Below are positions 31,238-64,000 of a stretch of 64,000 nt of DNA, one piece after another; the first letter of the stretch is position 1, and every line of letters starts with the position of its first letter. Below the pieces are notes generated by a model that was given only the letters and a program-made list of their open reading frames with translations, made no database searches and had not been told where the DNA came from. The stretch is taken from IMG/VR virus record IMGVR_UViG_3300037628_000218, positions 29,798-93,797 of that record; one strand, 5' to 3'. The DNA is from a virus. The translations under genes and the position numbers were made by a program.

Positions 31238-33937
31238 TTATACGTTAGCCTTAGCTACCCAAACTCCATTCTCATAGAAGTTGAAAACACTTGTTGTTGT
31301 GTTATATATCATCATACCATCAGCAGAAGTCAATAAATCACGTTGAGTCGTTGTCATACGAGGTAACATAAAACCTGCGGTTGTTGAGTTACACTCTATC
31401 CGACCATTCTCAATCTGTATATCTGTACCGCCATCTGGTGACACAAACTTAGTATAGGCATTCGCAATGTGTAACCGCTCTCGTACACTATCATGGATAG
31501 CATAATAAGCTGTCGCTTGAGTACCGTTATGGAAGGACTTGAAGCCACCTCCTTGTTGGTCTAACATCCAAGTGGCATCCGCATTAACATCTATACGTGT
31601 GGTTGTACCATCATGGTATTCAAGAGTGTTATTATCAAGCCAAAGATTGTCAGCTCCTGATTGACTCTTTATCTGAACACCTGTAGCCGTTGCACTTATT
31701 AAATCGTATGTACCGTTGTTATAAGCGAAAGCTGTGTTGTCTACCAGCACAGAGTTAGTGCCATCAGGAGATGAAAGTTTAGAGGCGGTAGCATCAATCT
31801 CTAGACGGTCAATAACCCCAGCTTCTACGGTAAAGGCATATCTGTCTACAACAACATGTGTATTGGAACTTTCTTCACGCCCTATAACAACCTGACCATC
31901 AGGAATAGTGAAGTCAATTATAAAAAAGTGCTTTCCAGAGGCTCCACCACCCATTTCAATTGCATCGCCATAATCATAGAAAAGCCCCCTATTAGTTGAG
32001 TTGAAGTGTCCAAGGTAACCAGTATCAGTTTCACCTACAAATTGTACTCCAGCAAAACCAGAAGGTTGTAGGTTTGTAAACTCTAACCCACTAGCTCCAA
32101 ATGAATCTCCTGTGTCTATGAACTCAGCTCTACCTGCATTATTTAATGATAGTAACTTTCCACCATCCGCAGAGACTAACTCTGTCTTTGTAGCATCTAC
32201 AGACACTCTATCCCTAGTGCCGTCACTATACGCCAACGCCCCGCCTGCTGTAGCGAGTGACATATCTCCACCAGTCTTTATATTCCTGACAGTGAAGTCT
32301 ACTACGTCAGCATCCAGATTAACCACATCCCCAGTCTCCTGATACATGGTATCTAGCTTATGATCACCAGTGGATGCCTGCATTGAATACAGTACCAAGT
32401 CAGTTGGTGTTTTATTCTGTACAACGAACTGGGAGCCGCCAACTACAGATTGGATTGCTGCTATTAGGTTATTTGCTGTGTCAAAAACTTTAAAGTTATC
32501 AGATTTAACAACACTATTACCGCCACGACGCATGTGGTGAGCTTTAACCTCTTCTAACGATAGTGCTCTGGAATAGACTTTAGCGTAATCCATGTACCCA
32601 TTAAACGGATATGACCCAACTTCATTGCGACCCCCAATTCCCCAAGTATTTGCTGAAATACCTAAGTTGGTCTCAGTAAGACTCGCCTTCACCTCCCCAT
32701 TTACAATAAGGTGCATTGTGGTGCCATCATACGTAGCTACAACGTGATACCACTCACCTGTTACAATATCAATGGTGTCATCTATATTGTTGTATGCCCC
32801 GTTTGCCTGTATCTCTATACCAATCTTATTAGGGAGTGAACTGGTGCTAGGTGAAATCCCGAACAGTAAGTCATTAGAAAACCCACCTTCATCTGAAGCA
32901 AGCAGTAGGGTTCTAGTGGAGTCAATTGCATTAAACACAACTTCCAATGACCATTCAGCTAGCGTTGGTAAATTGTCGGGGGTAGAGAGGAAAGTAGTGT
33001 TAGCACTATTGAAATATGCACCAGACCCGTATTGACCGTAGTCAGCTGCTATAACAGGAGAGCCAAAGTTAGTAAGGGTGTAAGCACTCTCACTTCTGTC
33101 ATACTGTGTTGCATCTGTTCCAATTTCTGTAAAAGGTACGTGCAAAACTAGCCCTGTCTCATCACCTAGCATTTCGTTAAACGGTGCTACTAAACCAGAG
33201 TGTGTGACTACCTCATCAGTAAAGGTGCGTAGCTCATACTTAGTATACGGTTCAGAGGGGTTGGTAGTACCTGGCTCAACTTGTAGGTAACTGAGAGATA
33301 CATCATCAGCACTTGTACGTCTATACATCACGACAGTAACAGGATCTCCTGCTGTAATATCCAGCGGGTGATCAAACTGCATTTTAATCGTACCGCCTGC
33401 TGCTACGGTATGCCCGTTGTTGTCTTGCATGTAGATCATTGTGCCTAAGTCATCAACTCCCCAGAACACTTCATAATGGAGCCATTCAGTAGGGGTAATC
33501 TCATCAACAGAGATAAACTCCCCAGAGAAATATGAACCAGCGGTAGGGGCAGTAAACGTATATTTACAATCTACTGCGCCAGATCCTGCTGCTATTCCAT
33601 TAGATTCTGTGGTACTCATTGTATCAGAATGTATACGTACACTTGGAGCAAAGACACCAGTGGAATCTTGATTAGCCACTATAGATTGATCTTTCAAGCC
33701 ACACCAAGCAGGCCAATAGTTAACACCTGAAGATATGTTGGTAAAGAAAATATTCTCTGCGCCAGAGGACATCTTATGCTGTCCACCTAGGTAGAAGGAG
33801 TTTAGATCAGTCTCGATAGCTCTACTAGCTACTAGTCGATCTGTGGTGCTGTTGTATGTAAAGTGTAGTAAAGTAGCCTTCTGTTCTGGGGTAACTCTTT
33901 CACTTGCTGAGCTACCGTCTGTTGGTAAAATAGACAT
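31238..33937 (-). CDS. Large virion fibre-like protein with LamG lectin fold
   Basis: An 899-residue protein. Residues about 255-465 are a LamG-like jelly roll (LVLHVPFTEIG, LPTLAEWSLEVVFNA, TGEWYHVVATYDGTTMHLIV, NGYMDYAKVYSRALSLEEV), a fold that binds sugars. The C-terminal 400 residues are shaft-like repeats, ending in MLPRMTTTQRDLLTSADG, a typical fibre tip or chaperone-adjacent segment. It lies among capsid and neck genes rather than baseplate genes, so it may decorate the head or neck (whisker-like). Confidence 0.82.
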   Translation of the reverse strand: MSILPTDGSSASERVTPEQKATLLHFTYNSTTDRLVASRAIETDLNSFYLGGQHKMSSGAENIFFTNISSGVNYWPAWCGLKDQSIVANQDSTGVFAPSVRIHSDTMSTTESNGIAAGSGAVDCKYTFTAPTAGSYFSGEFISVDEITPTEWLHYEVFWGVDDLGTMIYMQDNNGHTVAAGGTIKMQFDHPLDITAGDPVTVVMYRRTSADDVSLSYLQVEPGTTNPSEPYTKYELRTFTDEVVTHSGLVAPFNEMLGDETGLVLHVPFTEIGTDATQYDRSESAYTLTNFGSPVIAADYGQYGSGAYFNSANTTFLSTPDNLPTLAEWSLEVVFNAIDSTRTLLLASDEGGFSNDLLFGISPSTSSLPNKIGIEIQANGAYNNIDDTIDIVTGEWYHVVATYDGTTMHLIVNGEVKASLTETNLGISANTWGIGGRNEVGSYPFNGYMDYAKVYSRALSLEEVKAHHMRRGGNSVVKSDNFKVFDTANNLIAAIQSVVGGSQFVVQNKTPTDLVLYSMQASTGDHKLDTMYQETGDVVNLDADVVDFTVRNIKTGGDMSLATAGGALAYSDGTRDRVSVDATKTELVSADGGKLLSLNNAGRAEFIDTGDSFGASGLEFTNLQPSGFAGVQFVGETDTGYLGHFNSTNRGLFYDYGDAIEMGGGASGKHFFIIDFTIPDGQVVIGREESSNTHVVVDRYAFTVEAGVIDRLEIDATASKLSSPDGTNSVLVDNTAFAYNNGTYDLISATATGVQIKSQSGADNLWLDNNTLEYHDGTTTRIDVNADATWMLDQQGGGFKSFHNGTQATAYYAIHDSVRERLHIANAYTKFVSPDGGTDIQIENGRIECNSTTAGFMLPRMTTTQRDLLTSADGMMIYNTTTSVFNFYENGVWVAKANV

Positions 33938-34227
33938 TATGAGTTATCCTGTACGCTCAGAGGTGCATCTATATCGTCTATAGACTTAGCCCAAACTGCG
34001 TTCTCAAGTGCTGTGATTAACTTAATAGCTGTTGAGGCAGGTAGTGGTGGTAGTAATTCTCCGTTAGTAGAGTCAGCAGCGGGTTGAGCGTTGCTTATTT
34101 GGAGTAAGATTCTTGAAGTGGATTTATTAGTGATTACCAACGCTGTGCCTGCTACTACCCCTGAAAGGGTATTAACATTAACATATACATCTTTATCAAC
34201 TAAAACATCGGGTATCGTGTCTACCAT
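33937..34227 (-). CDS. Small virion protein, paralogous to the N-terminus of the 41337 product
   Basis: A 96-residue protein. VYVNVNTLSGVVAGTALVIT and the ending WAKSIDDIDAPLSVQDNS align with VSLNTLTGFPVGTYMTVT and IWAKGLGGDAVLSVQHSS of the gene at 41337. The two must share an origin. It overlaps the large LamG gene by one base. Probably a virion decoration or adapter domain. Confidence 0.75.
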   Translation of the reverse strand: MVDTIPDVLVDKDVYVNVNTLSGVVAGTALVITNKSTSRILLQISNAQPAADSTNGELLPPLPASTAIKLITALENAVWAKSIDDIDAPLSVQDNS

Positions 34228-38051: not shown

Positions 38052-39638
38052 TTACTTGTATTCCCCTTGCTCATCTAGTTCGTCTATGTTGACAACTTTA
38101 CCTGTAAGGGTGTCAATGAGTTTGTCACCGTCTACGATTAATTGTTTAGTAACGCTATTATTAGTGTTAGAACCACCTGACTTACCGCCCTGGGAGCTTC
38201 CTGTGCCTGAGGTTCCCCCTGACTCACCACCACGGCTTTTATCACCGTCATCGAAGCTAAGGTCTTCAATACCCTCTGTAGGCCAGCCAGCGTCCTTATA
38301 CAGCTTCTCAAGGGCTTCTGGAGTTATACCGCCAACTGACTTAGCTCGTTGGATAACTTTACTAATGACATCTAGATCAGGTTTAGAGGGGTCAGCTGCT
38401 TTAAATACGGGTGTATCCTTCCAGTCTAATCTGATATTGTTAATAGCGAGTAGTCGTGGAATCAGTTGGTTATTAATTACATCTTCTTTCCACATAACGC
38501 TACGGTTGACATAGTAGTCATGAGTAGTCATTTGATTAGATGATAGAGCGTTAGATCCATGCCCAGATTGACCAGTTAATAGGAAGCCAGTTCCAAACAT
38601 GTTATAAATACTTTTACGCTTCTGATCAATAATGTCAGAAGTGTTATATTGCTTACCGCCGCCTTCAATGCCTTTCAATTCAAAATCGAATAGAGGAACC
38701 TTTGTGACTTCATCTACATCTGAAACCATAACAATGAAACTAGATTCCCCAGCGTGTAAGGCTGCTGCATCTTTTTGAAGTTGTTTATACTCAGATGCTT
38801 CAGCAGGATACGTTGTAGGGTCATTAGCGCGTTCTATCATTTCAGAAGGAACACGTAGGACTACAGCACCGCCGAGGTCTTTAGAAACACCGACTACTTC
38901 ATAGCGTTCTACAAGCTTCTTTTCCAACCAAGCATCATAGATGTGGTTAAGAGGAGAGTCGCCTTGAGGACTATTATTAGTAGGGTTATGTCTAAACCAT
39001 AAGGTTTGTTGTGTACTAATGAACGGGTAGCGAGGTCTTAAGAACCCATTCGAGATATTTGATAGTAAGATACCATTTTGAAACTCAGAGGCTCTAGGCT
39101 CTCTTAATTGAACCCTATTAGGTTTTTGTACAAAGCCCTTTAAGTCTCGGATGTTCTTATCCCATACCCAACCGTAAACAGACTTTTGATCCCGTGGAGA
39201 AAGCTTTTTAAGAACCTTCATCCCAGCGAATTGGCCTGTCCTTCGGATTTCTACTACAATGTTTTGTAACGCAAATCCGTATTGAAGGTCTGTAGCAGCA
39301 TTATTCATAGACTCTAACCAAGTACCTGAAGTTAGGTTCCTGATATTGTAGTTTAGAAAGTCTGTTGCAAGTTTACTAGGAGCACTTCCACTAGGAGAAA
39401 CACACTGCCCGTTATTCATTGCAGTGGTGACTAAAATGTTTGTCACGTCTATAGAATTGGCTACAGCATCGTCCTCTACCATCTTATCAAAAGAGCATAG
39501 ACTATTAGGCATAACCAAGTCAGTTTTACGTTGGTCTCGGATATAACGGGTAGATGTTAGGATTTGTGGTTGACCTACCTCAGTAAAGGGTCGGGTTACC
39601 ACAGCACTAGAAGACTCTGCCTTCTCTAAATCAGCCAT
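38052..39638 (-). CDS. Portal protein
   Basis: A 528-residue protein of the phage portal type. YGWVWDKNIRDLKGFVQ, RPRYPFISTQQTLWFRHN, GDSPLNHIYDAWLEKKLVE and NMFGTGFLLTGQS are typical. The Gly/Ser-rich tail (residues 475-510) is probably disordered. It forms the dodecameric DNA channel at the head vertex. Confidence 0.88.
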   Translation of the reverse strand: MADLEKAESSSAVVTRPFTEVGQPQILTSTRYIRDQRKTDLVMPNSLCSFDKMVEDDAVANSIDVTNILVTTAMNNGQCVSPSGSAPSKLATDFLNYNIRNLTSGTWLESMNNAATDLQYGFALQNIVVEIRRTGQFAGMKVLKKLSPRDQKSVYGWVWDKNIRDLKGFVQKPNRVQLREPRASEFQNGILLSNISNGFLRPRYPFISTQQTLWFRHNPTNNSPQGDSPLNHIYDAWLEKKLVERYEVVGVSKDLGGAVVLRVPSEMIERANDPTTYPAEASEYKQLQKDAAALHAGESSFIVMVSDVDEVTKVPLFDFELKGIEGGGKQYNTSDIIDQKRKSIYNMFGTGFLLTGQSGHGSNALSSNQMTTHDYYVNRSVMWKEDVINNQLIPRLLAINNIRLDWKDTPVFKAADPSKPDLDVISKVIQRAKSVGGITPEALEKLYKDAGWPTEGIEDLSFDDGDKSRGGESGGTSGTGSSQGGKSGGSNTNNSVTKQLIVDGDKLIDTLTGKVVNIDELDEQGEYK

Positions 39639-41336: not shown

Positions 41337-42425
41337 CTACCCTTGAATCTCATGGCCTTGTGCGGTCATTGCGAATACAGTATTTGAAGACCCTGTTACT
41401 AAGTCATCTTGTACAAGTACCTGGAGTTCTTCATCCAGAGCACCATTTAACCTTATAACTACTCCATGCTTTGACTGTCCACCCCAAGTTAACCTAGCAG
41501 TGAAACCTTTAATTGTGTTTCCTACAGCCCTAGGAAGAAGGAAGTTGTGATCAAAACACTGCCTAATAAAATCCCCATTAGTCTTAAAGTTAAATAGGTT
41601 TCTAAAATTACCATCTGATTGTTTAATTCTTACAACGCAACCATTAGCTAACGCATCGTCTGATCCAAATGTCCCAAAGTCCATATCTGTTGAACCACGG
41701 AGGTCAAGAGTAAGTCTAACAATGTCTCCTTGTTGCGTAGGTAAAGGAAGAATTGTGAAGATCTCAGGGGTTGCTAGAGACGCATTGGCTAGCATGTTCC
41801 TCGTACTAATTTGAGCAATGTCAGAAGTTAGGTAATCCACATTTAAGGGTTGGTCTATAGTTAGTGCATTCACATTTAGGCTAGTTACAGCGGTTTGTAT
41901 AAAGACATTTTCAACCGTGGCAGAAGCTAGCTCCAGAATATCCCCTACTTCAGCGTTATGGCCTGCTGTGAGGTTTACTACTGTGTCTCCCTTATTAGCA
42001 TTGGCTGATAATGTAGTTAAGGTGCGCGACTTTAGTAAGGGAATTGATAGTGGTGGTGTTGTCTGGTCTAGGATGAACATAGGAACCCCTCTGGAACCTC
42101 TATTAGATACCTCCACAGGAACTACATCACTTGTCACGATTGATGAGTGTTGCACTGATAATACAGCGTCACCACCCAAACCTTTAGCCCATATTTCAAG
42201 GGAGCTGTCAGGAACAATTCCAGAGGGTTCTTTGCCTACTAGAGGAGTTAAAATAATCCCATCCACACTATCCGCTACAGGTTTTACGCTATCCTCAAAG
42301 AGAACTACCTCACGAGACGACTTATTAGTAACCGTCATGTACGTACCTACAGGAAACCCTGTAAGAGTATTAAGGCTTACCCAATCGTCTGCTGTTACTG
42401 TAATATCCGCTAATGTTTTAGCCAT
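41337..42425 (-). CDS. Virion protein, 362 aa, with domain shared with the 33937 product
   Basis: The first 95 residues are paralogous to the 96-residue protein coded at 33937. The remainder contains beta segments (TLTTLSANANKGDTVVNLTA, HNAEVGDILELA) like those in phage fibre or adaptor proteins and a C-terminal lectin-like region. It lies right after the terminase gene. Likely a head-associated fibre or decoration protein. Confidence 0.7.
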   Translation of the reverse strand: MAKTLADITVTADDWVSLNTLTGFPVGTYMTVTNKSSREVVLFEDSVKPVADSVDGIILTPLVGKEPSGIVPDSSLEIWAKGLGGDAVLSVQHSSIVTSDVVPVEVSNRGSRGVPMFILDQTTPPLSIPLLKSRTLTTLSANANKGDTVVNLTAGHNAEVGDILELASATVENVFIQTAVTSLNVNALTIDQPLNVDYLTSDIAQISTRNMLANASLATPEIFTILPLPTQQGDIVRLTLDLRGSTDMDFGTFGSDDALANGCVVRIKQSDGNFRNLFNFKTNGDFIRQCFDHNFLLPRAVGNTIKGFTARLTWGGQSKHGVVIRLNGALDEELQVLVQDDLVTGSSNTVFAMTAQGHEIQG

Positions 42426-42458: not shown

Positions 42459-45400
42459 TTAAAGTGATTTTACAGAAGGAAGGTTCGCACCTCTAGGCTC
42501 TAGGTCTGATACCTTTACTTGATCTACTGAGCCTACTATATCTGCTGCCAGAGTTCTTGTATGGCTCTGATTGCGTGGGACTATCCTAACTATACGAGCT
42601 GTTGAAAGGTAGTTAAATGCAGAGGCTGTGGCATCAGGCCAGTCATCTTTTCTATGAGATGATGATCTTTCTCCATCGAAGGCTTCGCTCTCCTTGAAAA
42701 ATGCGTCTAACGTTGCAGGATTAAAAGAGCTTTTAACTAAGTAGACTAGACCATTTTCAGCTGCGCTTGAGAAGGGTAGGTATCTAGTTAACTTACCGCT
42801 AGTTGTTGGCATAGGATCTTTCTTGACAACGTAACCGAGAGTTATCAATTTCCGTGCTGAGTCAGTGTATTCTGTTATACCTGCGGCTCCTGGGTCTTGC
42901 GAGAGGATCACAGTGCATTCAGTTCCATCTTGTTCTGCTTGCTTGTGTACTAGGACTTCTCGTCTGCCAGAACGCTCTCTGAACCTACCGAAGACCTTAT
43001 TCTGCTTGCAGTCCTTCTTATCATAGTTATCACTTTCGTAATCACCTATCAGGTAGAAGAAGCCATGCCTATCCTTAGCCATTTTTACAGAAGCTGTGTA
43101 ATCTGGGTGTGTGTTCTTCTCAGAGGGTTCTGTAGCTGCCTTATCCCAAGCCCTACAGTATGCTGCTCCTTCTGGAACTGTATCAACTACAGTTAACCAG
43201 CTTCTTTGGAAGTGTGAGGAGCCTTCTGGCCTAGCGTACCAGTTACCATGTAGTAATCTATCTTTTTCTATCTGAGGTAATGCGTTAAGCTGCGAGACAT
43301 AGCCAGGGTTAGCTAACCTTACTGCGGCGTTATCAAAGATAGTTCCCCCTATAAACGTAATAGTCTTAGGTGGGAAATACTCCTTTTCCCCAGTGTTAGG
43401 GTTGTTTACCCAGCAAATGGTAGGGTGAAGCTCCTCCATCTCTTTAACAGTGTCAGTGAAGTAGAGTTCGTCATTAATCATGCCGTAAAACTTTTGCACC
43501 CCAGCTTTACTCTTATCTGGAAACCCCTCATCATCTAACCACCAATCTATGAGTTGAGCAATGTAGCTATCAGGGTCAGGGTTGCAAGAGATAAACATCG
43601 TACTTTTAACTTCAGCACTAGAACGCAATCGAGACATTAAAAATGTAATTTGGTATTGTGTAAAGGCGGTTCCTTCATCAAAGTAGATTTGGGAGTACTG
43701 CTTACCTTGATGGTCATCAGCGTTTTTCTCATGTTCCATATGAGAAAACTTTATCTGTGCGCCAGAAGGAAAATGTATTTCTCGCGCATTCTCTTTTATC
43801 TTTGCTCCAAAATTTCTGTATATGCTTTTAGCTTCATTCCAGACAGAACCAGAGCCTGTTAGCATTGCCCCAGTTCTACGGAAGAAGATAGCCTCGAATT
43901 TTGGGTCATGGATTTGTAAGAGGGGTCTAAGCAGCATTAAATGGGTTTTACCCAAGGCATTACACGTAATAGTGGTCTTTAAATCCGTCTGATTTAAGAC
44001 GGTAGGTTAGTTTTTGTCTTGACCACCTTAGTATTCTTGCTGCGTCCCTAACCCCATTGTATCTTACCCCTGAAACATAAACTGGTTTCTTTTGATGGGC
44101 GTTAAGCCCGTTTCTTATATAAGGGTCATTCATAGGGTTATTGGCTGTTGTAAATAAGCCAGGGTGCTTTGCAAGAACTTCAGGGCGTTTCATAGGGTTT
44201 AGTTTGCCCATTTGAACGCCAGGTCTACCTCCACAAGAAATGTTGTAGTAGCTTTTACTCTTAACTTCATCGACACCTATAAGAAGCTCCTCTATTTCGT
44301 AAGCCTCGTCTAGATCCTTACAAACCATAAGCTGGAACTCAAAGTTTTCTCTTCCGTATTTACGGATGGCGTGACCAAAAGGGTATGGGGACGAACCGTG
44401 TTCTTTTAGTCTTCTCTTGAAGTTATTAGTTATCCCTACGTAAACCTTATTACTAGGAGATCTTGCAACGTATACTAAGTGTGTCAAAGCTTTCCTTACC
44501 ACAGCCGTAGCTGGTATCTATTACGTCTAACGCCTCGGACTATCTCATCACCCTTCACAGGGGCTGGACGCTATGTTGTCGTTACAAATTATATGACAAT
44601 AGGTTGTTCCCTCTGGTTTAGAGGTGTACTTCATATTGAATTTGTATTTCATACTGTTAGGTATGTCAGTTAAGTAGGGTCGGAGGAGATCAAAAAACAG
44701 TTTAAGGTTAGTCGCATTTAAGTATATGCAATAACTTCCTTTGGCTTTGTAGATCTTGACATCTATATTGAACCGTTGTTTGAACATTCTTTGTATTGTG
44801 AGCTGGGAGTTATAATCAAGATTGTGTGTAGCTAAGCTGCCATGCCTACTAACGCTACCATTAGCCTTCACATGAACTGATAAGCTACCATTGTCCAACC
44901 ACCAAAGTAAAAGACCTATAGGTGTTATCCTGTCCGCAACATACTTAGAAACATATTTGATGCCATTAGAGTTTAACACCCTACTATGATCCACATGTCT
45001 GTTTGTTTGCAATTTACAGCTTACTTGAGAGTAAGTATGCTCTCCATAAGTTGTAAGTCTTTTGTAGTCATATCTAGTGGTAGTCTTAAGACCCCATGAT
45101 GTGTATAGAGCTTCTAGCCAAACAACGTAGTCTCTTTGCTTATTGGCATGTGTGCTTTCTACCCAATGCCCTGTACTACTATTCCTTCTGAGATACCCAT
45201 TGCCCAGGATGTTTCCAAATAGGCTATAATGTATCTCCTTTTTACTTAACTGTTTCATAGTAGAATCCTCTACTTTAGATTTTAACGACTAACTAGTCTC
45301 TGAACCGTCCTACTCTGTAGGCTTGGCTGCCGATTGCCTGTTAAGGGTTCCAGCAATTCATCCAGTTTTTCTTTTGATTCTTACGAAAAAGGGAAGCCGA

Positions 45401-45514
45401 AAAAGGCCATTTTCATTAACTTCCCGCAGCTCCTCCATACACCACAATATCCTGTGGAGCGTTCATAGCTATTTCTTGTGCGCCTTTTTGGGGGCGGTAT
45501 GTATTTTGTTCCAC
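42459..45514 (-). CDS. terL: Terminase large subunit, split by a group I intron
   Basis: The packaging motor ATPase and nuclease. The coding sequence is join(42459..43952, 45419..45514), 529 residues. Exon 1 (32 codons, GTG start behind AGGAG) ends VYGGAAGS; exon 2 begins GKTHLMLLRP, so the Walker A GGAAGSGKT is cut between Ser32 and Gly33. Walker B IYFDEG lies at about residues 121-126. The nuclease domain has SQDPGAAG and DDWPDATASAFNYL. Without splicing no ATP site exists. The TTG seen at 43955 is the intron end, not a start. Confidence 0.93.
43960..44502 (-). CDS. GIY-YIG homing endonuclease
   Basis: A 180-residue intron-coded nuclease. The N-terminal catalytic module has LVYVARSPSNKVYVGITN (GIY-YIG variant VYV/YVG), the FKRRLKEH arginine helix and the ENFEFQL glutamate. 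The middle holds a Gly/Arg/Pro linker with NUMOD-3-like KLNPMKRPEV, and the C-terminus (VRYNGVRDAARILRWSRQKL) looks like a NUMOD1 helix-turn-helix. GTG start at 44502 after a weak site. Likely drives intron spread into intronless terL genes. Confidence 0.9.
   Translation of the reverse strand: MVRKALTHLVYVARSPSNKVYVGITNNFKRRLKEHGSSPYPFGHAIRKYGRENFEFQLMVCKDLDEAYEIEELLIGVDEVKSKSYYNISCGGRPGVQMGKLNPMKRPEVLAKHPGLFTTANNPMNDPYIRNGLNAHQKKPVYVSGVRYNGVRDAARILRWSRQKLTYRLKSDGFKDHYYV
44548..45258 (-). CDS. LAGLIDADG-type endonuclease or maturase
   Basis: A 236-residue protein with two LAGLIDADG-like helices: SLFGNILGNGYLRR near residue 13 and PIGLLLWWLDNGSLSVH near residue 113, as in the LAGLIDADG_2 family. 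In both, the usual catalytic acid (LGDG, DDG) is replaced by asparagine (LGNG, DNG). DNA cutting may therefore be lost; a maturase role in splicing is possible. The ORF occupies the P8 region of the terL intron and its 3' end runs into the S element. Confidence 0.85.
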   Translation of the reverse strand: MKQLSKKEIHYSLFGNILGNGYLRRNSSTGHWVESTHANKQRDYVVWLEALYTSWGLKTTTRYDYKRLTTYGEHTYSQVSCKLQTNRHVDHSRVLNSNGIKYVSKYVADRITPIGLLLWWLDNGSLSVHVKANGSVSRHGSLATHNLDYNSQLTIQRMFKQRFNIDVKIYKAKGSYCIYLNATNLKLFFDLLRPYLTDIPNSMKYKFNMKYTSKPEGTTYCHIICNDNIASSPCEG

Positions 45515-45604
45515 TTTGCTCTCCTGTTATTGGTGTGAGGTGTGCCTAAGGAAGACTTAATGCTTCACGGCAACTATTATTATATGTGATAGTCTGCTAA
45601 GATA

Positions 45605-45679
45605 TGGCTCCCACGGCTGGACTTGAACCAACACTGCTAGAGTCAAAGTCTAGTGTCCTACCAATTAGACGACATGGGA
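45605..45679 (-). tRNA. tRNA-Gln (anticodon TTG)
   Basis: Acceptor TCCCATG pairs with CGTGGGA (one G-U) and ends GCCA. Anticodon stem CTAGA/TCTAG with loop CTTTGAC gives TTG, reading CAA. T arm CTGG-TTCAAGT-CCAG is regular. First from the left of the four tRNA genes between the terminase genes. Confidence 0.95.
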
Positions 45680-47984: not shown

Positions 47985-48380
47985 ATGGTAAATGATTTGT
48001 ATGATTACTCACAATGGCCTAATTTCACAAGAGAAGAATTGATATGTCAATACACCAGTGAGGAGAACCCTAACGTAGATGCCTTCACAAGGCTCATGGA
48101 CAACGCACAGGAGCTTAGAACTTGGGCAGGAGTACCTTTCCAAGTCCCTAGTGCTTATCGCTCTCCTATACACCCTAAAGAGGTTTGTAAGTCTAGTCCA
48201 GGGCAACACAGTAAAGCTGCTCTTGACATTAGAGTCCCTACACAGCATTGTCATAGGATTGTTGCTAAGGCTTTTGAGCTAGGTTTTACAGGTATTGGTA
48301 TTAACCTAATAGGGGCAAAGGGGACTAGGTTTATTCATCTTGATAGACGGGAAGGCCCACCTAGGATTTGGAGCTACTGA
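47985..48380 (+). CDS. Endolysin, M15-family peptidase
   Basis: A 131-residue zinc peptidase of the M15_3 type (D-Ala-D-Ala or L-Ala-D-Glu cutting). SAYRSPIHP, then GQHSKAALDIRV gives the metal ligands His75 and Asp81, and RFIHLD gives His118. It cuts host peptidoglycan peptide bridges. No signal peptide, so it needs a holin. It is coded in the rightward arm, far from the holin-like and spanin genes at 15-16 kb. Confidence 0.9.
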   Translation: MVNDLYDYSQWPNFTREELICQYTSEENPNVDAFTRLMDNAQELRTWAGVPFQVPSAYRSPIHPKEVCKSSPGQHSKAALDIRVPTQHCHRIVAKAFELGFTGIGINLIGAKGTRFIHLDRREGPPRIWSY

Positions 48381-48399
48381 AAGTAATGTAGTAAAGTGA

Positions 48400-48428
48400 T
48401 TGACAAGCACTAGGTTACTTAGTATAGT
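48400..48428 (+). promoter_or_regulatory. Sigma70-type promoter after the endolysin gene
   Basis: TTGACA-17-TATAGT, located 20 bases after the endolysin stop and about 75 bases before the next start at 48504. Confidence 0.75.
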
Positions 48429-48503
48429 CAACTCAAGTGTGCATATACGCACAAAATCAACTAAAACACCCCTAACTGTGGTGTTAACGCACGGAGGTAG
48501 AAG

Positions 48504-48632
48504 ATGAGAGTGATTCTTATAACCCAGCAAGAGTTAATCCAGAGGCAGGAAGAAGAAATGGTTGAGCTGCTAGTACAGGCTGTTAAGGATGGTAAAGCGG
48601 TTCCTTCTATCTTTTCGTATATGGTGCATTGA
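48504..48632 (+). CDS. Small protein, 42 aa
   Basis: An ATG behind CGGAGG opens a 42-residue reading: a single charged helix (QQELIQRQEEEMVELLVQAV) with a short hydrophobic tail. It is the first gene after the 48400 promoter and its stop is one base from the next start. Function unknown. Confidence 0.65.
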   Translation: MRVILITQQELIQRQEEEMVELLVQAVKDGKAVPSIFSYMVH

Positions 48633-50785: not shown

Positions 50786-51445
50786 ATGAAAAGCACAGAC
50801 GGTAAAAAGTTAGTCAAGAATAATTTCTATCACACAAGGTCAGGTCAAGAAGTAGTTCTACAGGATTGGGGTAAAGGGCAGTATGGCCCTATGTTTCTCA
50901 TAACTCGCTTTTATGAGGGTGAGGGGACGGAGATGAAATTGTACCCAGAAGGGGAGATCGACTTTAATTATGAGCATGATGGGGAAATAGAGCCAGTCGA
51001 TGAGTTATTTAAAGAAGCTCCAGTGTTTGTTGTTGATAAAGAGTATAAAGAGAAATCGGAAGAGGTTTTAGCTCTTTGCGCTTCGATTGGTAAGCTTGAG
51101 AAATTACTTGCAGCGTCAAATAAGGAGTTATATAGGCTTAAGGATGAAGTAAGGATTACTGCCCTTAAATCTAAAGATGGTGAAGCTGCCCTACAAACTT
51201 GGGCAAGAAGTATCAAGTCTGCAAGGGAAGAGCTGGCAGATAAAGCAGATCAGATAGCAAGAGCTGAAGAAAAGCTTAGTAGCTACAGTAGCCCTAGTGA
51301 TAGTCTTGTAACCGTAACTGCGGTTGAGCTAGCTGAGTATAGACGGTATAGATTTAAGCTCACCTGCCTGATAAAGGGTGGGGTCGCCTTATGGGAGGAT
51401 TATGACGAGGTTTTAAAAGATTACTGGAATCAGTATCCAGAGTAA
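50786..51445 (+). CDS. MKSTDGK-family protein, copy 1, 219 aa
   Basis: First of three related proteins (also at 54304 and 54834). The beta-rich N-terminus has STDGKKLVKNNFYHTRSGQE and a W-aromatic core; a conserved DELF motif leads into a long charged coiled coil (about residues 85-165). No known family. The pattern of a small barrel plus coiled coil suits a scaffold or binding protein. Function unknown. Confidence 0.72.
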   Translation: MKSTDGKKLVKNNFYHTRSGQEVVLQDWGKGQYGPMFLITRFYEGEGTEMKLYPEGEIDFNYEHDGEIEPVDELFKEAPVFVVDKEYKEKSEEVLALCASIGKLEKLLAASNKELYRLKDEVRITALKSKDGEAALQTWARSIKSAREELADKADQIARAEEKLSSYSSPSDSLVTVTAVELAEYRRYRFKLTCLIKGGVALWEDYDEVLKDYWNQYPE

Positions 51446-53418: not shown

Positions 53419-53592
53419 ATGACTACTAAAGTTTATAAGACAATTTTTGAAGAGGAAGCAGATGGTGTAAGAATCACCCTAGCACTTGAAGAAGGGCTGG
53501 AAGAGAAGAACGAGAAAGCTTTCAACCTTAACTTTGCGTTAATGGAGCTAGCTAGCCAGCTTGTTGTAACGGCTAAAGGAGGTAAGAGCTAA
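53419..53592 (+). CDS. Small protein, 57 aa, ending TAKGGKS
   Basis: ATG behind GAGGAG. A 57-residue acidic protein with a beta N-terminus and a helix. Its last codons, TAKGGKS, carry the AAAGGAGG site for the next gene. The same DNA ends the next gene. Confidence 0.65.
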   Translation: MTTKVYKTIFEEEADGVRITLALEEGLEEKNEKAFNLNFALMELASQLVVTAKGGKS

Positions 53593-53929: not shown

Positions 53930-53958
53930 TTGACAGGGCCAAGCTAGTATGTAATAAT
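53930..53958 (+). promoter_or_regulatory. Sigma70-type promoter
   Basis: TTGACA-16-TAATAA (or 17 to AATAAT) just after the stop at 53926 and about 35 bases before the next start. Confidence 0.8.
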
Positions 53959-54164: not shown

Positions 54165-54307
54165 CAGATAATGAAGTCCTAGCTATGGCTATACTTAAAT
54201 CGTTTTCAGGGTGGTTAGTAGTAGTAAGTGTGTACTATCTGGTGATGCGTCATTTAGAATTACGCGCATATAATAGGAAGGAACGCGGAGAGGGGTTTGA
54301 GGTATGA
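54161..54307 (+). CDS. Small membrane protein, 48 aa
   Basis: A 48-residue protein with one span (residues 16-29, GWLVVVSVYYLVM) and a basic tail. Couples by ATGA overlap to both the gene before and the MKTTDGK gene after. No family known. Confidence 0.62.
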   Translation: MTDNEVLAMAILKSFSGWLVVVSVYYLVMRHLELRAYNRKERGEGFEV

Positions 54308-54837
54308 AAACAACAGATGGTAAGAAGCTTGTAGTAAACTCACGTTACTTCACAAGGTCAGGGTGCCTAGTAAACCTACTAGGGTGGAGCTTAACTGTAA
54401 GTGAAGATGTAAATATCGTAACCTATAACGTACTGCCCGCTTTTAAGACTTCAGCAAGTAAGGGTGTATATAGAGGAGAAACTGATCAGGTTAGTGAGCT
54501 GTTCCTCTACCTACCAGGTGCTCTTATTATTAACAAGAAGAAAGCTAAGAAAGCTGAAAAGGTTTTAGCTCTTAATGCGGTAATTAAGGAGCTTCAGGAT
54601 ACAGTAGTAGACCTTAACGCCTCATGTCAGGGTAGAAGCTCAAGGTTAGATATGCTGATAGAACGGATGAGGGTAAATGGTATACAACTAACGAAGGCAG
54701 AGGGAAAGCTGAAAGCTATAGAGGATAAGATTACAAGCAGTACAGCATCACTAATCCTGCTAGAAGTTATTTGCGATAAGGGCCTATCTGACATCCATCT
54801 TAACTCAATACTAGAAAAGATGGAGGCAAATCTATGA
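54304..54837 (+). CDS. MKTTDGK-family protein, copy 2, 177 aa
   Basis: N-terminus TTDGKKLVVNSRYFTRSG, then a W residue and VSELFLYL, as in copies 1 and 3. The C-terminal half is a coiled coil. It has diverged most in the barrel section. It overlaps copy 3 by four bases, which points to tandem duplication. Confidence 0.72.
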   Translation: MKTTDGKKLVVNSRYFTRSGCLVNLLGWSLTVSEDVNIVTYNVLPAFKTSASKGVYRGETDQVSELFLYLPGALIINKKKAKKAEKVLALNAVIKELQDTVVDLNASCQGRSSRLDMLIERMRVNGIQLTKAEGKLKAIEDKITSSTASLILLEVICDKGLSDIHLNSILEKMEANL

Positions 54838-55553
54838 AAACAACAGATGGGAAAGACCTTAAAGTAGACTCATATTACTTCGAGAAGACAGGACAAGCAG
54901 TTATTCTAAAGGAATGGGGTGTGTATGAGCATGGTGTGTTCTATAAGGTTGTTCGAGTTTATGAGGGTGTGTCACGGACTTATGAGGAGGGTGTAATGGT
55001 TGTGGATGACTCCTCTAAGAAGTATGTAGGAGAACTTGAGAGGGTTAGTGAGTTATTCGCTGATGTTCCAACCAGTATTAATAGCGATGCGTATAAGCAG
55101 AAACTTGAAGAGGTTTTAGATCTTGGTGCGGAAGTCAGGGAGCTTGAGACTAAAGCAAATGATCTTGCTTCGAAGGTTTTTGCTAACGGCTTAAAGTTAC
55201 AGAAAGTAACAAAACAGGTTGAGGTAGCCAACAAAGATCTGAGGGATACTCTATTAGAAGTTGATAACGCAAAGGACAAGTTAATAGAAACAAACTTTGA
55301 CACACTATCAGTAGAGCGAGAGCACAAATTCAGTATAAAGGTATTGGGGAGGAAGAGCAAGGAAGCCTCGGAGGAATTGGCAGCTAAACAGTCAGAAATT
55401 GCTATAGCAGAGGAACGGCTGAAAAGGTTAAAGGGAAGGTTCTACGCGCGGGCAAGGGTGAAGCGCGGCTCCGACAGTTTTGATAAGCTTGAAAATCCAG
55501 AGGATAGTATTGATCCAACTACACTAAGCGCGCTTCTGGATGGCTTTAACTAA
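54834..55553 (+). CDS. MKTTDGK-family protein, copy 3, 239 aa
   Basis: N-terminus TTDGKDLKVDSYYFEKTGQA, aromatic core EWGVYEHG, a VSELF motif, then a long coiled coil (about residues 88-205) and an acidic tail. Similar in layout to copy 1. Function unknown. The clear alternation of barrel and coil suggests oligomer formation. Confidence 0.72.
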   Translation: MKTTDGKDLKVDSYYFEKTGQAVILKEWGVYEHGVFYKVVRVYEGVSRTYEEGVMVVDDSSKKYVGELERVSELFADVPTSINSDAYKQKLEEVLDLGAEVRELETKANDLASKVFANGLKLQKVTKQVEVANKDLRDTLLEVDNAKDKLIETNFDTLSVEREHKFSIKVLGRKSKEASEELAAKQSEIAIAEERLKRLKGRFYARARVKRGSDSFDKLENPEDSIDPTTLSALLDGFN

Positions 55554-56405: not shown

Positions 56406-56509
56406 ACCTTCCTTATAGGTAAAGTATCACTTGACATACAGGAGAGGGCAGTGCTGAAGACAAATCAGAGGGGTACTACTAAAAATTACCTTAAATTATG
56501 GAGGGATTA

Positions 56510-56911
56510 ATGACTAGAATTAATGTATACTATGACGGTAAGTTAAGCAGAGGAATGCCAGCAACTATAATTAAAGCAAAGGGTAAAAGGATTTTAATTC
56601 AGTTTCATAATGAGTGGAGTGATGATGAAGAGGAAGATACGGATACTTCTGTGTGGTTTAATAAAGTGAGCAGGTCTCGTAAGGGCGTGTATACCCACGC
56701 ACCTACAAATACTTGGTTTTATAGGGAAAGAGAAACAGAAGCATTTAAGTTTGCAAGTCGTGAATGGCTAGTCCAAGAATATTATGATAAGTTGTTTAAC
56801 CCTTGTTTAGAAAAGAACCTTGTAGGGCGTTATGAAGTAGCTACGGTTTCTGAAGATATTGGAAGAGCTATACGTACTCCATCTGAAATAACGGGGGTTT
56901 ACAATGGATAA
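56510..56911 (+). CDS. Hypothetical protein, 133 aa
   Basis: The start at 56510 follows GGAGG; an in-frame ATG at 56498 overlaps that site and is rejected. A beta N-terminus (INVYYDGKLSRGMPATIIKA) is followed by an acidic patch (DDEEEDTD) and a mixed C-terminus. No family known. Its end overlaps the next gene by eight bases. Confidence 0.68.
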   Translation: MTRINVYYDGKLSRGMPATIIKAKGKRILIQFHNEWSDDEEEDTDTSVWFNKVSRSRKGVYTHAPTNTWFYRERETEAFKFASREWLVQEYYDKLFNPCLEKNLVGRYEVATVSEDIGRAIRTPSEITGVYNG

Positions 56912-57032
56912 CAACGGTTGGGAGAGTCTTTTAAAGTTCGCATATTTTGGAAGTATTGTAGCTGCTGGGATGGTTATAGCAGGGGCTGGTTCTGTAGTCT
57001 ATTTGATCTATTTGGGTGCTAATAGTGTTTGA
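56904..57032 (+). CDS. Small membrane protein, 42 aa
   Basis: A short polar start then one Gly/Ala-rich span (residues 14-37, GSIVAAGMVIAGAGSVVYLI). It lacks a clear own ribosome site but overlaps the gene before it. Its stop lies within the -35 box of the next promoter. Confidence 0.58.
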   Translation: MDNNGWESLLKFAYFGSIVAAGMVIAGAGSVVYLIYLGANSV

Positions 57033-57057
57033 CAAGGGTTGGGAAGAGTGCGATAAT
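57029..57057 (+). promoter_or_regulatory. Promoter of the KTRI paralogue array
   Basis: TTGACA-17-GATAAT, about 30 bases before the first gene of the five-gene array. A good ribosome site (TAGGAGG) follows. Confidence 0.8.
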
Positions 57058-57087: not shown

Positions 57088-57357
57088 ATGGGCAGCATGA
57101 ACGATAAGCCAGATACACGTATATTAAAGCAGCTAGACGAAAATGGTGAGAATGCTACGTACAAAGCACAGTATACTAACGTCCTCGGTATTTGGGTAGA
57201 CATCTACATTGATATAAATGGAGTGGGTGAGTGTACCTGTCTCACTAGCTCTCTTTCTGTGGCTAAGGAAGTTATCGACAAGCTTTTACTGCCTTATAAC
57301 ATTCCTGAAGAGGAGATAATAATTTATCCACCTGTGGTATCTGAAGGAGATTCTTAA
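57088..57357 (+). CDS. KTRI-family paralogue A, 89 aa
   Basis: DTRILKQ at the N-terminus, KAQYTNVLGIWVDIY, then VAKEVIDKLL and IIIYPP near the end. These four anchors (TRI-K, AQ...W-W, A-x-x-ID-LL, EVI-YPP) recur in all five copies. No outside family known. The N-terminus is extended by about seven residues relative to the others. Confidence 0.75.
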   Translation: MGSMNDKPDTRILKQLDENGENATYKAQYTNVLGIWVDIYIDINGVGECTCLTSSLSVAKEVIDKLLLPYNIPEEEIIIYPPVVSEGDS

Positions 57358-57358
57358 A

Positions 57359-57610
57359 ATGAAAACACGTATTTTAAAGCAGACTACCCAAAGCGAAGAG
57401 ACCTATATAGCACAATTCATTAACCAATACGGTGAGTGGGAAAACCTCGTGTTGTGGACAAACTCCTCAGATGAGGGGATAAACCAAAATAGGTATCAAA
57501 GTGTCTACCGATGCAAAGCTGAAGAGGCTATAGACAGGCACCTAGCTATCCTTGTTACTAAGGAAGAGGTGATACAGTACCCACCTACGGTAGTTGAAGG
57601 GGGTCCCTAA
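57359..57610 (+). CDS. KTRI-family paralogue B, 83 aa
   Basis: MKTRILKQ, YIAQFINQYGEWENL, KAEEAIDRHL and EEVIQYPP. Starts after AAGGAGA, one base from copy A. The last codons hold the GGGGG site for copy C. Insert near residue 35 relative to the others. Confidence 0.75.
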   Translation: MKTRILKQTTQSEETYIAQFINQYGEWENLVLWTNSSDEGINQNRYQSVYRCKAEEAIDRHLAILVTKEEVIQYPPTVVEGGP

Positions 57611-57910
57611 ATGAAAACACGTATAGTAAAGGAGTATGGAGAACATGGGAGCACCTACCGCTTTAAAGCTCAGGTGCAGGTATGGGAAGACATCCCACTG
57701 GGTATAGATCTTAAGGGGCAGGATACCTACGAAACTCATAAAGAGTATAGAGCTAAGGGAGCTATAGATAGGTTACTTGCTAACAAACCTTCTAAGAAGA
57801 AGGAGGTGATAACCTACCCTGTTGCTAAGATACCTCTTGAGCTAGACGATAGTGATACTCCTAGTGCAGCTGCTGTTGCTGCATACTGGGGGCAATGCGG
57901 GAGGGGCTAA
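57611..57910 (+). CDS. KTRI-family paralogue C, 99 aa
   Basis: MKTRIVKE, FKAQVQVWEDI, RAKGAIDRLL and KKEVITYP. Longer C-terminal tail (acidic, then GQCGRG). The GW segment before the second W is missing, so it is the most diverged copy. Confidence 0.75.
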   Translation: MKTRIVKEYGEHGSTYRFKAQVQVWEDIPLGIDLKGQDTYETHKEYRAKGAIDRLLANKPSKKKEVITYPVAKIPLELDDSDTPSAAAVAAYWGQCGRG

Positions 57911-57951
57911 CTGGGACGTACAGTCAATAATCAATTTAAAGAGGATACACT

Positions 57952-58167
57952 ATGAAAACACGTATAAAAAAGGAAACGTCCTCTCATGACGGGGCGGTAA
58001 CCTACACAGCACAATATAAAGATAATTGGGGTATGTGGGTAAACCAAGGAGTACCAAGGGAAGAATTAATTTATGCTGAGGTTGCTATCGACTTACTGTT
58101 AGGAGATAACAGACTTGCTAAGGCGGTAGTGGTTAAGACAGAGATAATAGAGTACCCTAAACTATAG
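57952..58167 (+). CDS. KTRI-family paralogue D, 71 aa
   Basis: MKTRIKKE, YTAQYKDNWGMWVNQ, YAEVAIDLLL and TEIIEYP. Shortest copy and close to the array core. It has its own AAAGAGG site, after a 41-base gap. Confidence 0.75.
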   Translation: MKTRIKKETSSHDGAVTYTAQYKDNWGMWVNQGVPREELIYAEVAIDLLLGDNRLAKAVVVKTEIIEYPKL

Positions 58168-58176
58168 GAGGTCGAT

Positions 58177-58401
58177 GTGGAAACACGTATTTTAAAGGAA
58201 ACGTCAGCTTACAATGGGATGGTTAGCTACACAGCACAGCGTAAAAACTGTTGGGGTACGTGGGTAGACATAGGACACCAATACCCTAAGGAACGTCATG
58301 CTAAGTTTGAGATTGACGAGTTGTTAGAAAAGCATTCAGCAGTTAAGAAGGAAGTGATAGAATACCCACCTTCTAAAGGGGGTTTAGGTGAGCTGTATTA
58401 G
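58177..58401 (+). CDS. KTRI-family paralogue E, 74 aa
   Basis: GTG start behind TAGGAGG. METRILKE, YTAQRKNCWGTWVDI, KFEIDELL and KKEVIEYPP. It closely resembles copy D through the first half. Its last codons overlap the start of the cysteine-rich gene by 14 bases. Confidence 0.75.
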   Translation: METRILKETSAYNGMVSYTAQRKNCWGTWVDIGHQYPKERHAKFEIDELLEKHSAVKKEVIEYPPSKGGLGELY

Positions 58402-58762
58402 TAAGAGGGGTAGATGCACATCATGCTGTGAAGCGATTCATATCCCTACTTTGGGGTGGATTGAAATTAAGAAGGGGAGAAATAAAGGCCCAGACGCTGT
58501 TAATATTAAGGAGCATTGGGTAAATATTTCTAAGCGTAGAGCTAAGAAGATCAACCCTCATATATTCAAGGAAGGGGTTGGTGATTCACATTTTCTCTCT
58601 TTAGCTAGTTTCTTTACTTGTAAACGAATAATTAAAGGGTCTGGGTGTAGTGTGAGACACTTAGACAGCCACCCAGGGACTTGTAAGAGGTATACAGGTG
58701 GCACTGAGTATAGTCCTACCTGCGAACAGGACATCAATATAATAGCTAGAAGCGGAGGATAA
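58388..58762 (+). CDS. Cysteine-rich protein, 124 aa
   Basis: GTG start behind AAAGGGGG. Clusters CISKRGRCTSCC near the N-terminus and C-x(8)-C, C-x(11)-C spacing in FTCKRIIKGSGC and CKRYTGGTEYSPTC suggest one or two zinc sites. It is basic. Possibly a nucleic-acid or protein-binding zinc protein. No named family recognised. Confidence 0.68.
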   Translation: MSCISKRGRCTSCCEAIHIPTLGWIEIKKGRNKGPDAVNIKEHWVNISKRRAKKINPHIFKEGVGDSHFLSLASFFTCKRIIKGSGCSVRHLDSHPGTCKRYTGGTEYSPTCEQDINIIARSGG

Positions 58763-61246: not shown

Positions 61247-61330
61247 TAGGGATTTGTCAGTGGTTGACAGGGCTAAGGGGGTGTGGTAGGGATTTGTCAG
61301 TGGTTGACAGGGCTAAGGGGGTGTGGTAGG
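61247..61330. repeat. 40-bp tandem repeat, two copies
   Basis: Two identical 40-bp units carrying GGATTTGTCAG, GGTTGACAGGG and GGGGGTGTGG. Each unit holds TTGACAGG, close to the TTGACAGT seen in the 63139 repeats. Confidence 0.9.
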
Positions 61331-61523
61331 GGCTGTTAATGCTAATAGGAATCATTCGCATTGGAACGGGCTGCATAGGTATAGGGTGCTGACAGGGCTT
61401 GTACAGGAGCTAGGAGGAGCTATAAAGGGGCTGGTGTAAGGGTGTTGATAGGAGCTATCAAGGTGGGGGGTTTATGGGTAAAGGAAAACCCCAATTAAGG
61501 GGCTATAAGGGGCTGTCAGGGGC

Positions 61524-62772: not shown

Positions 62773-63138
62773 CTTTTAAGTTAAATTAATCTTGTCTCAA
62801 CTTCTGAAACTAACTATACCCTGATTATTCTGTATTTATATGACATACATCAATAAAGAGTGAATAACTTTTAAAGTTTCTTTAAATTAGCTGTAAGCTC
62901 CTGAGAGCGTGCTAGTAAGGTTTTGGTAGGTAGCTAGTAGGTTAGCTCATAATGTAATAGAACGCACTAATAGGAATCATTCTCAATCAAGTAGTGTGCC
63001 AACTTTAAGAGGATTCTGCCTAGCACGTTCTGAAGTAGCTGTCAAGGTATTAAAAACAGCTGTTAATACTTGAAAATAGTTAATAAAGTGCTTGACAATA
63101 GTTCAGAGGTGAGTATGGTCGTCTAACGTAATAGTATC

Positions 63139-63259
63139 TTGACAGTCTCTTGACAGTCTCTTGACAGTCTCTTGACAGTCTCTTGATAGTGTCTTGATAG
63201 TGTCTTGATAGTGTCTTGATAGTGTCTTGATAGTGTCTTGATAGTGTCTTGATAGTGTG
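63139..63259. repeat. 11-bp tandem array, 11 copies
   Basis: Four copies of TTGACAGTCTC followed without a break by seven of TTGATAGTGTC (the last ends G), then degenerate copies to about 63282. The 11-bp period is one helical turn, so the same face is presented each time. This suits iteron-type protein binding. Confidence 0.95.
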
Positions 63260-63321
63260 CTAATAGACTCTTGACAGTGTTCTAACAATGTTATAACTAC
63301 AGCAGTAAACCATTAGTAAAG

Positions 63322-63381
63322 TTATCCACAGTTTTATGGAGTTATCCACAGGCTAGTAGAGTTATACACAAGTTATTCACA
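63322..63381 (+). promoter_or_regulatory. Cluster of four DnaA-box matches
   Basis: TTATCCACA (63322, 63342), TTATACACA (63362) and TTATTCACA (63373) all match the TTATNCACA DnaA box, on the same strand with starts 20, 20 and 11 bases apart. Directly beside the 11-bp array, they mark a likely replication origin. Confidence 0.9.
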
Positions 63382-63532: not shown

Positions 63533-64000
63533 TCAGCAATGGTTTGGTAATTTATGACAACCACTAAACATGAGGTGCCTAATCATTCCTTTATTCAGAA
63601 CGCTATTAAGCTCTGATAACTCGATACAGTCATAGAACATAAATGATGCAACGTACAACTTAGGCATATCACTAGAAAACCTAGTTAGCCCCCCACACCA
63701 GCTAAACATACTTTTAGCATATACTACACTAGATAAGTCACTGTCAAATTCTGTTATATCACTGCCCCAAAACATACCAGTTACATCAACAACCTTAGCT
63801 ATGTCTAGTTCACTAGATTTTAGTAATTCCTTAAGATGCCTGCTGCACCTGTATACACGCCTTAATGTTATTCTGTTTTCATTCGTGTTCTCTACAAAAG
63901 TACACCCGTTACTAATATACTCTTTACCGTCTGACATGAGTATCAAAAAAGACGGATTATTACGATAAGATTCTTCTACATACCCTACTAATCTAATAAA
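63533..64000 (-). CDS. BspA-like leucine-rich repeat protein, cut by window edge
   Basis: The reading stays open to the window edge, so the start lies outside; a TTG at 63946 and an ATG at 63937 are internal. The visible part has DUF285/BspA-type repeats: VVDVTGMFWGSDITEFDSDL, YAKSMFSWCGGLTRFSSDM, ASFMFYDCIELSELNSV, HLMFSGCHKL. These repeats occur in surface proteins and in many phage genes. Function unknown. Confidence 0.75.
   Translation of the reverse strand, partial: FIRLVGYVEESYRNNPSFLILMSDGKEYISNGCTFVENTNENRITLRRVYRCSRHLKELLKSSELDIAKVVDVTGMFWGSDITEFDSDLSSVVYAKSMFSWCGGLTRFSSDMPKLYVASFMFYDCIELSELNSVLNKGMIRHLMFSGCHKLPNHC

Follow-up and report, generated by a model that had tools for sequence, protein, structure and literature searches.

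Five consecutive open reading frames (ORFs) on the plus strand of the genome of a tailed phage are true paralogues that form a tandem array, which occupies positions 57088-58401 of the window, i.e., the 64,000 nucleotides that were analysed in this study and that span bases 29798-93797 of a viral record with a length of 93,797 bases. As judged from sequence searches, the family to which they belong is new at the sequence level, and it probably represents a far-diverged branch, one that forms arrays, of the small phrog_8363-type proteins found in large myophages. For the function of the array, we tentatively put forward the explanation that it is a five-gene accessory cassette, expressed early, whose products would bind host factors and would each have become specialised for a target of their own.

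Organisation and expression of the tandem array

The five copies, designated A-E, encode proteins of 71-99 aa, and the gaps between the successive ORFs are 1, 0, 41 and 9 nt. Copy A (57088-57357, 89 aa) is acidic with a pI of 4.1, and copy B (57359-57610, 83 aa) has its first base 1 nt past the stop codon of A. Copy C (57611-57910, 99 aa) has a pI of 8.6 and carries an additional C-terminal tail of ~20 aa, copy D (57952-58167, 71 aa) has a short loop between strand 3 and the helix of the predicted fold, and copy E (58177-58401, 74 aa) begins with a GTG start codon. The reading frames of all five are intact. In their alignment, 16 columns are invariant, among them those of T-R-I-K, A-Q, W, A, I-D, L, E, I and Y-P, even though the identity between the copy pairs is 29-48%, with D and E being 48% identical. 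At the DNA level, repeats in the array are found chiefly around these anchors, and, in addition, D and E share 74% identity over 98 nt at their starts. When profiles that were built from four copies were searched against 3,897 ORFs, the fifth copy was recovered each time with 45-58 bits and E-values from 3e-12 to 2e-16 (2e-16 for A, 1e-14 for B, 3e-12 for C, 6e-14 for D and 7e-16 for E), while the nearest unrelated ORF had an E-value of at least 0.09. An earlier, sequence-only reading of this DNA had described five tandem paralogues, which the alignment and the leave-one-out profiles confirmed; it had also quoted the anchors correctly, except that its EVI-YPP anchor is fixed only partly, as copy A has EIIIYPP, copy C EVITYPV and copy D EIIEYPK. 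A sixth copy was found nowhere else in the 93.8-kb record.

Upstream of copy A, at 57029-57057 on the plus strand, there is a candidate sigma70-type promoter with an extended -10 element (TTGACA-N17-GATAAT, with TG before the -10), which was identified by its consensus match at 11 of 12 positions. A pattern written from this same site, which the site thus matches with 0 mismatches, gave 15 matches with up to three mismatches across the window against 6.8 expected, and sites of the same type with one mismatch lie at 53930 and 15346 (- strand). Within the array, the best promoter-like sites reach only 9/12 of the consensus, and neither a comparable promoter nor a terminator-like site on the plus strand was found there, which supports the previous suggestion that one promoter serves all five genes. 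Sequences resembling Shine-Dalgarno sites were recognised by eye ahead of all five starts, including AGGAGG 5 nt upstream of the ATG of copy A (57088). Because the next gene, which encodes a Cys-rich protein, starts at 58388 within copy E, the operon probably extends past the array. Since the promoter follows the host-type consensus, the array is probably transcribed early, with the timing being a prediction from the DNA.

Predicted fold and probable remote relatives

Models that were obtained by running AlphaFold2 on the five sequences suggest, with modest confidence, that each product folds into one beta-beta-beta-alpha domain. For copy E, the model had a pLDDT of 75 and a pTM of 0.50, and for copy A, in which the same order of elements was predicted (strands 10-16, 23-30 and 36-38, helix 56-70), these values were 72 and 0.58. 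In this layout, TRI-K would form strand 1, Y/F-x-AQ strand 2 and the surroundings of the invariant W strand 3, followed by a helix with A..ID.LL and by the conserved EVIxYP tail, which was given no confident placement in the models.

Searches of Pfam, PHROGs, NCBIfam and PADLOC gave no meaningful match for any array member, and the phrog_18049 and phrog_13062 models did not reach the array. The matches to DUF6619, the TelK muzzle, MMTV_SAg and LmuA/B (E=0.005, one member only) were judged to be due to chance; the library matches (Pfam, NCBIfam, PADLOC) were so judged because they involved a single member, were partial or fell below the cut-off. A sequence search of the PDB returned nothing significant, and the structure searches had no match at E<0.001. 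Degenerate-pattern scans of IMG/VR and of 84,980 prokaryotes in GTDB (one genome per species), which mostly detect close relatives, confirmed no relative; a DNA pattern for MKTRIxKE matched once in IMG/VR, but not in a related ORF. Among the INPHARED phages, blastn and tblastn, which likewise detect mostly close relatives, gave weak matches only and no confirmed relative, one of these matches being to Aeromonas AerS_266 (E=2), within a protein of 268 aa. Our literature search found nothing on the array family. The profile and structure searches that the sequence-only reading had proposed as a check thus linked the copies to no housekeeping or structural family with confidence. Its statement that the family was not one it recognised holds for the libraries, none of which names it, but it probably goes too far if taken to mean a family without any kin, as the copies resemble the uncharacterised phrog_8363 proteins.

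In the viral structure search, the top match of the copy E model was a protein of 64 aa from Cronobacter phage GAP31 (K4F6P9, E=8.5e-3), which, by its length and layout, is probably GAP31_093. This protein belongs to phrog_8363, a family of ~64-aa proteins from the Seunavirus phages GAP31, 4MG, FENT2, EspYZU15 and KE22, whose relatives were collected and aligned. They share with the array the order RI / [YF]x[AVL]Q / W / A..[IV][DE], and they themselves have a W..W strand, an A....E helix and an end that contains K/VI. They differ from it in that one copy per genome was detected in the Seunavirus phages that were searched, and in that their C-terminal end carries a KKKDAFKS..RLG block, which is absent from the array members, where EVIxYP is found instead. 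The profile of the GAP31_093 family, when run against 5,549 ORFs, had copies E (E=0.036) and A (0.48) as its first non-self matches, with D a few ranks lower (2.1). In the opposite direction, 2,534 sequences were searched with a profile built from D and E, which found the other three copies and next, at ranks 6-9, four phrog_8363 proteins (E=0.37-3). The hhalign comparison placed the array and the phrog_8363 family in register (P=0.0024) with a score of 20.2, which was reached by none of the 300 column shuffles (9.3 +/- 1.9), and single members from EspYZU15 and LNA4 each outscored all 500 background proteins.

The ranks near the top in both directions, taken together with the weak E-values, point to probable homology and not to membership. 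The copies lie outside phrog_8363 as it is defined: its own model found nothing over the whole record, even though it recovered GAP31_093 at 6.6e-20, and hmmscan returned phrog_8363 among the matches of none of the array members. We consider it quite likely that the array and the phrog_8363 proteins are remotely homologous. It could also be argued that the resemblance is a convergent motif layout and that the family is a true orphan, which concerns its origin and not its function. This is doubtful; no single E-value was below 0.03 in either direction, GAP31_093 itself ranked only ~125th of the 2,534 sequences with the five-copy profile, the phrog_8363 model is silent here and the comparison family was picked via structure matches, in a search that itself uses sequence, but chance convergence agrees poorly with the near-top ranks both ways, with an in-register alignment that scored above all of the shuffles and with the common order of the motifs. 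In Vibrio phage D69, VPHD69_0042 scores with the phrog_8363 family, and VPHD69_0040 is, weakly, of the same layout; the two genes (L071, 3691-3936 and 3150-3386, respectively) are one gene apart and both encode RV / W..PW. Two such proteins in close proximity suggest that a small cluster may exist outside this phage too.

A more distant likeness was observed to the DUF1508 / YegP proteins. The best PDB structure match of the copy E model was 3bid (E=0.078, probability 0.97, TM 0.49-0.58, rmsd ~10 A over the alignment), the structure of NMB1088, which we take to be a DUF1508 protein, and a DUF1508 protein of Mycobacterium phage Fruitloop was found in both viral structure searches. However, no copy had a Pfam match to DUF1508 (PF07411) at E<=1, and the resemblance, whose E-value is not significant, would be one at the fold level only. 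The structure matches to T7 Gp1.2 and to dsRBD had E>0.2 and were rejected.

Genome context and an exchangeable slot

The phage encodes a terminase, a portal, a tape measure and a baseplate wedge protein of the myovirus type, and its terminase shares 45-49% identity with those of Klebsiella phages KP13-16 (Stephanstirmvirinae), Aeromonas phage 4L372D and Vibrio phage PWH3a-P1. The nearest relative that was found, G001 (94,888 bases), has a terminase that is 78% identical and a genome that is largely collinear. Upstream of the array, a conserved flank is provided by an ORF of 57 aa (53419-53592, plus strand; 66% identical to G001 48375-48539), and downstream by the Cys-rich gene (58388-58762, plus strand; 52% identical to G001 45241-45609), which matches phrog_14785 (E=2e-6), a PHROG without an assigned function. 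Between these shared flanks there are 4.8 kb with the array in our phage, compared to 2.8 kb with unrelated ORFs in G001, which encode, among others, a metal-dependent phosphohydrolase (phrog_990, E=1e-48) and a nucleoside deoxyribosyltransferase-like protein (PF15891). No array copy was detected in G001. An ORF of 98 aa in its interval (L026, 6529-6825) was considered and rejected as a member, as it shares only EVIVYP and part of the helix (E ~1). Since the flanks are shared and the contents differ, this interval is an exchangeable slot for accessory genes. A comparison of the copy number across related phages, which had been suggested before, thus gave five copies against none in the syntenic interval of G001, i.e., the number is not constant.

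The same presumed early region harbours a second paralogue family with three members (50786-51445, 54304-54837 and 54834-55553), two of which begin with MKTTDGK. The C-terminal part of the first member matches the family of T7 gp5.9-type RecBCD inhibitors (phrog_6234, E=1.3e-5; PF25708 below the cut-off), although this match, which lies in a probable coiled-coil stretch and could be compositional, is only suggestive.

Several other features of the record were observed. The stretch 63322-63381 holds four 9-mers of the DnaA-box consensus (TTATNCACA), of which three are spaced by ~20 bp and the last follows after another 11 bp. Next to them, at 63131-63280, an 11-bp repeat (ATAGTGTCTTG) is present in 13.6 copies; by its sequence, the region 63131-63381 looks like an iteron/DnaA-type replication origin. 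Leucine-rich-repeat paralogues of the BspA type (PF13306, E=1.5e-11 for the longest) are located at both ends of the record (63533-63946, minus strand; L002 480-959 and 1268-2023, minus strand), and these genes may form a single array that spans a circular junction. The ORFs 33937-34227 and 41337-42425 (-) have a stretch of 96 residues in common (36% identity), and one place in the distant phage G006 matches both. A small and presumably early ORF (56498-56911) and the portal gene (38052-39638, minus strand) have a stretch of 37 residues in common that is 49% identical. Finally, a gene-poor stretch at 61247-61331 contains 2.1 copies of a perfect 40-bp tandem repeat that includes TTGACAGG.

Divergence of the copies and their possible function

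Analysis of the copy pairs by the Nei-Gojobori method over the whole gene gave dS values of 0.9-1.7 (one pair saturated) and dN values of 0.47-0.82, with a ratio of ~0.4-0.6 at sites that are near saturation, and the three codon positions had diverged to a comparable extent. The copies separated long ago and are now distant from one another. No positive selection between them was seen in these whole-gene ratios near saturation; a dN/dS of 0.4-0.6 is a sign of constraint or relaxation and not of positive selection. The variation sits in the turns, the tails and the loop between strand 3 and the helix, where D and E are clearly shorter than the other three copies; the net charge ranges from -9.5 in A to +1.7 in C.

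These values would suit copies that had been kept by chance or for their expression level, with relaxed constraint and without any diversification of targets, and the fast turnover of small phage accessory genes and the absence of the array from its closest relative are consistent with this. Nevertheless, we regard drift or dosage as rather unlikely, as the anchors are invariant in all five copies despite the low identity between them, every frame has remained intact with its Shine-Dalgarno site, and copies that are this different do not merely add dosage. It is unlikely, too, that the proteins are the subunits of a hetero-oligomer or a regulatory or nucleic-acid-binding set for the phage's own use, e.g., in the control of replication or transcription, because, even though five paralogues with near-contiguous frames in one operon would suit an assembly and the conserved EVIxYP tail, which lies beyond the part of the model that is folded with confidence, might serve as a motif for assembly, the span of charges is unlike that of a nucleic-acid-binding set and G001 manages without a detectable copy.

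According to the explanation that we tentatively favour, a cassette of specialised host-factor binders, one small gene would have been duplicated repeatedly in tandem, with the copies diverging afterwards. The small, non-enzymatic products would be made early from the host-type promoter of the phage and would bind host proteins of defence or metabolism, and the variable loop between strand 3 and the helix would adapt each copy to its partner. A role as binders is suggested by the very small size of the proteins, by the lack of an obvious conserved catalytic motif, by their being dispensable between close relatives, by the host-type promoter and the accessory slot, and by the fact that the gene was multiplied and then diverged. 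The early timing, the binding role and counter-defence are what we infer from these features. From the genomic context and by analogy, it is plausible, as the sequence-only reading had proposed, that the proteins antagonise variable host targets, and for counter-defence in particular, the accessory slot and the neighbouring gp5.9-like match are circumstantial; no known inhibitor was found among the matches of the array members. A more specific form of this idea, in which the beta3-alpha scaffold with its variable loop would supply, from an exchangeable early slot, five inhibitors of different host defence proteins, with the phrog_8363-type proteins as their single-copy relatives, seems improbable as a whole. 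To our knowledge, no function has been assigned to most of the small early genes of phages.

Amplification of counter-defence genes has been documented in the T4/T6 phages, i.e., of tifA in T4 (PMC9391042) and in a SegB-mediated form (PMC13096335). The array resembles these cases, such as that of tifA, which acts against ToxIN, in that a small accessory gene was multiplied locally in tandem (PMC9391042, PMC13096335). However, the T4-like repeats arose within an experiment, whereas the array copies are only 29-48% identical to each other, and the comparison is not one of homology. As five natural variants of one scaffold in a single operon, the copies constitute a compact test set in which the residues that differ should reveal what the scaffold binds. 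Moreover, if the link to phrog_8363 is true, a function established for the array would help to make sense of small proteins in phages that infect E. coli, Salmonella, Cronobacter and Enterobacter.
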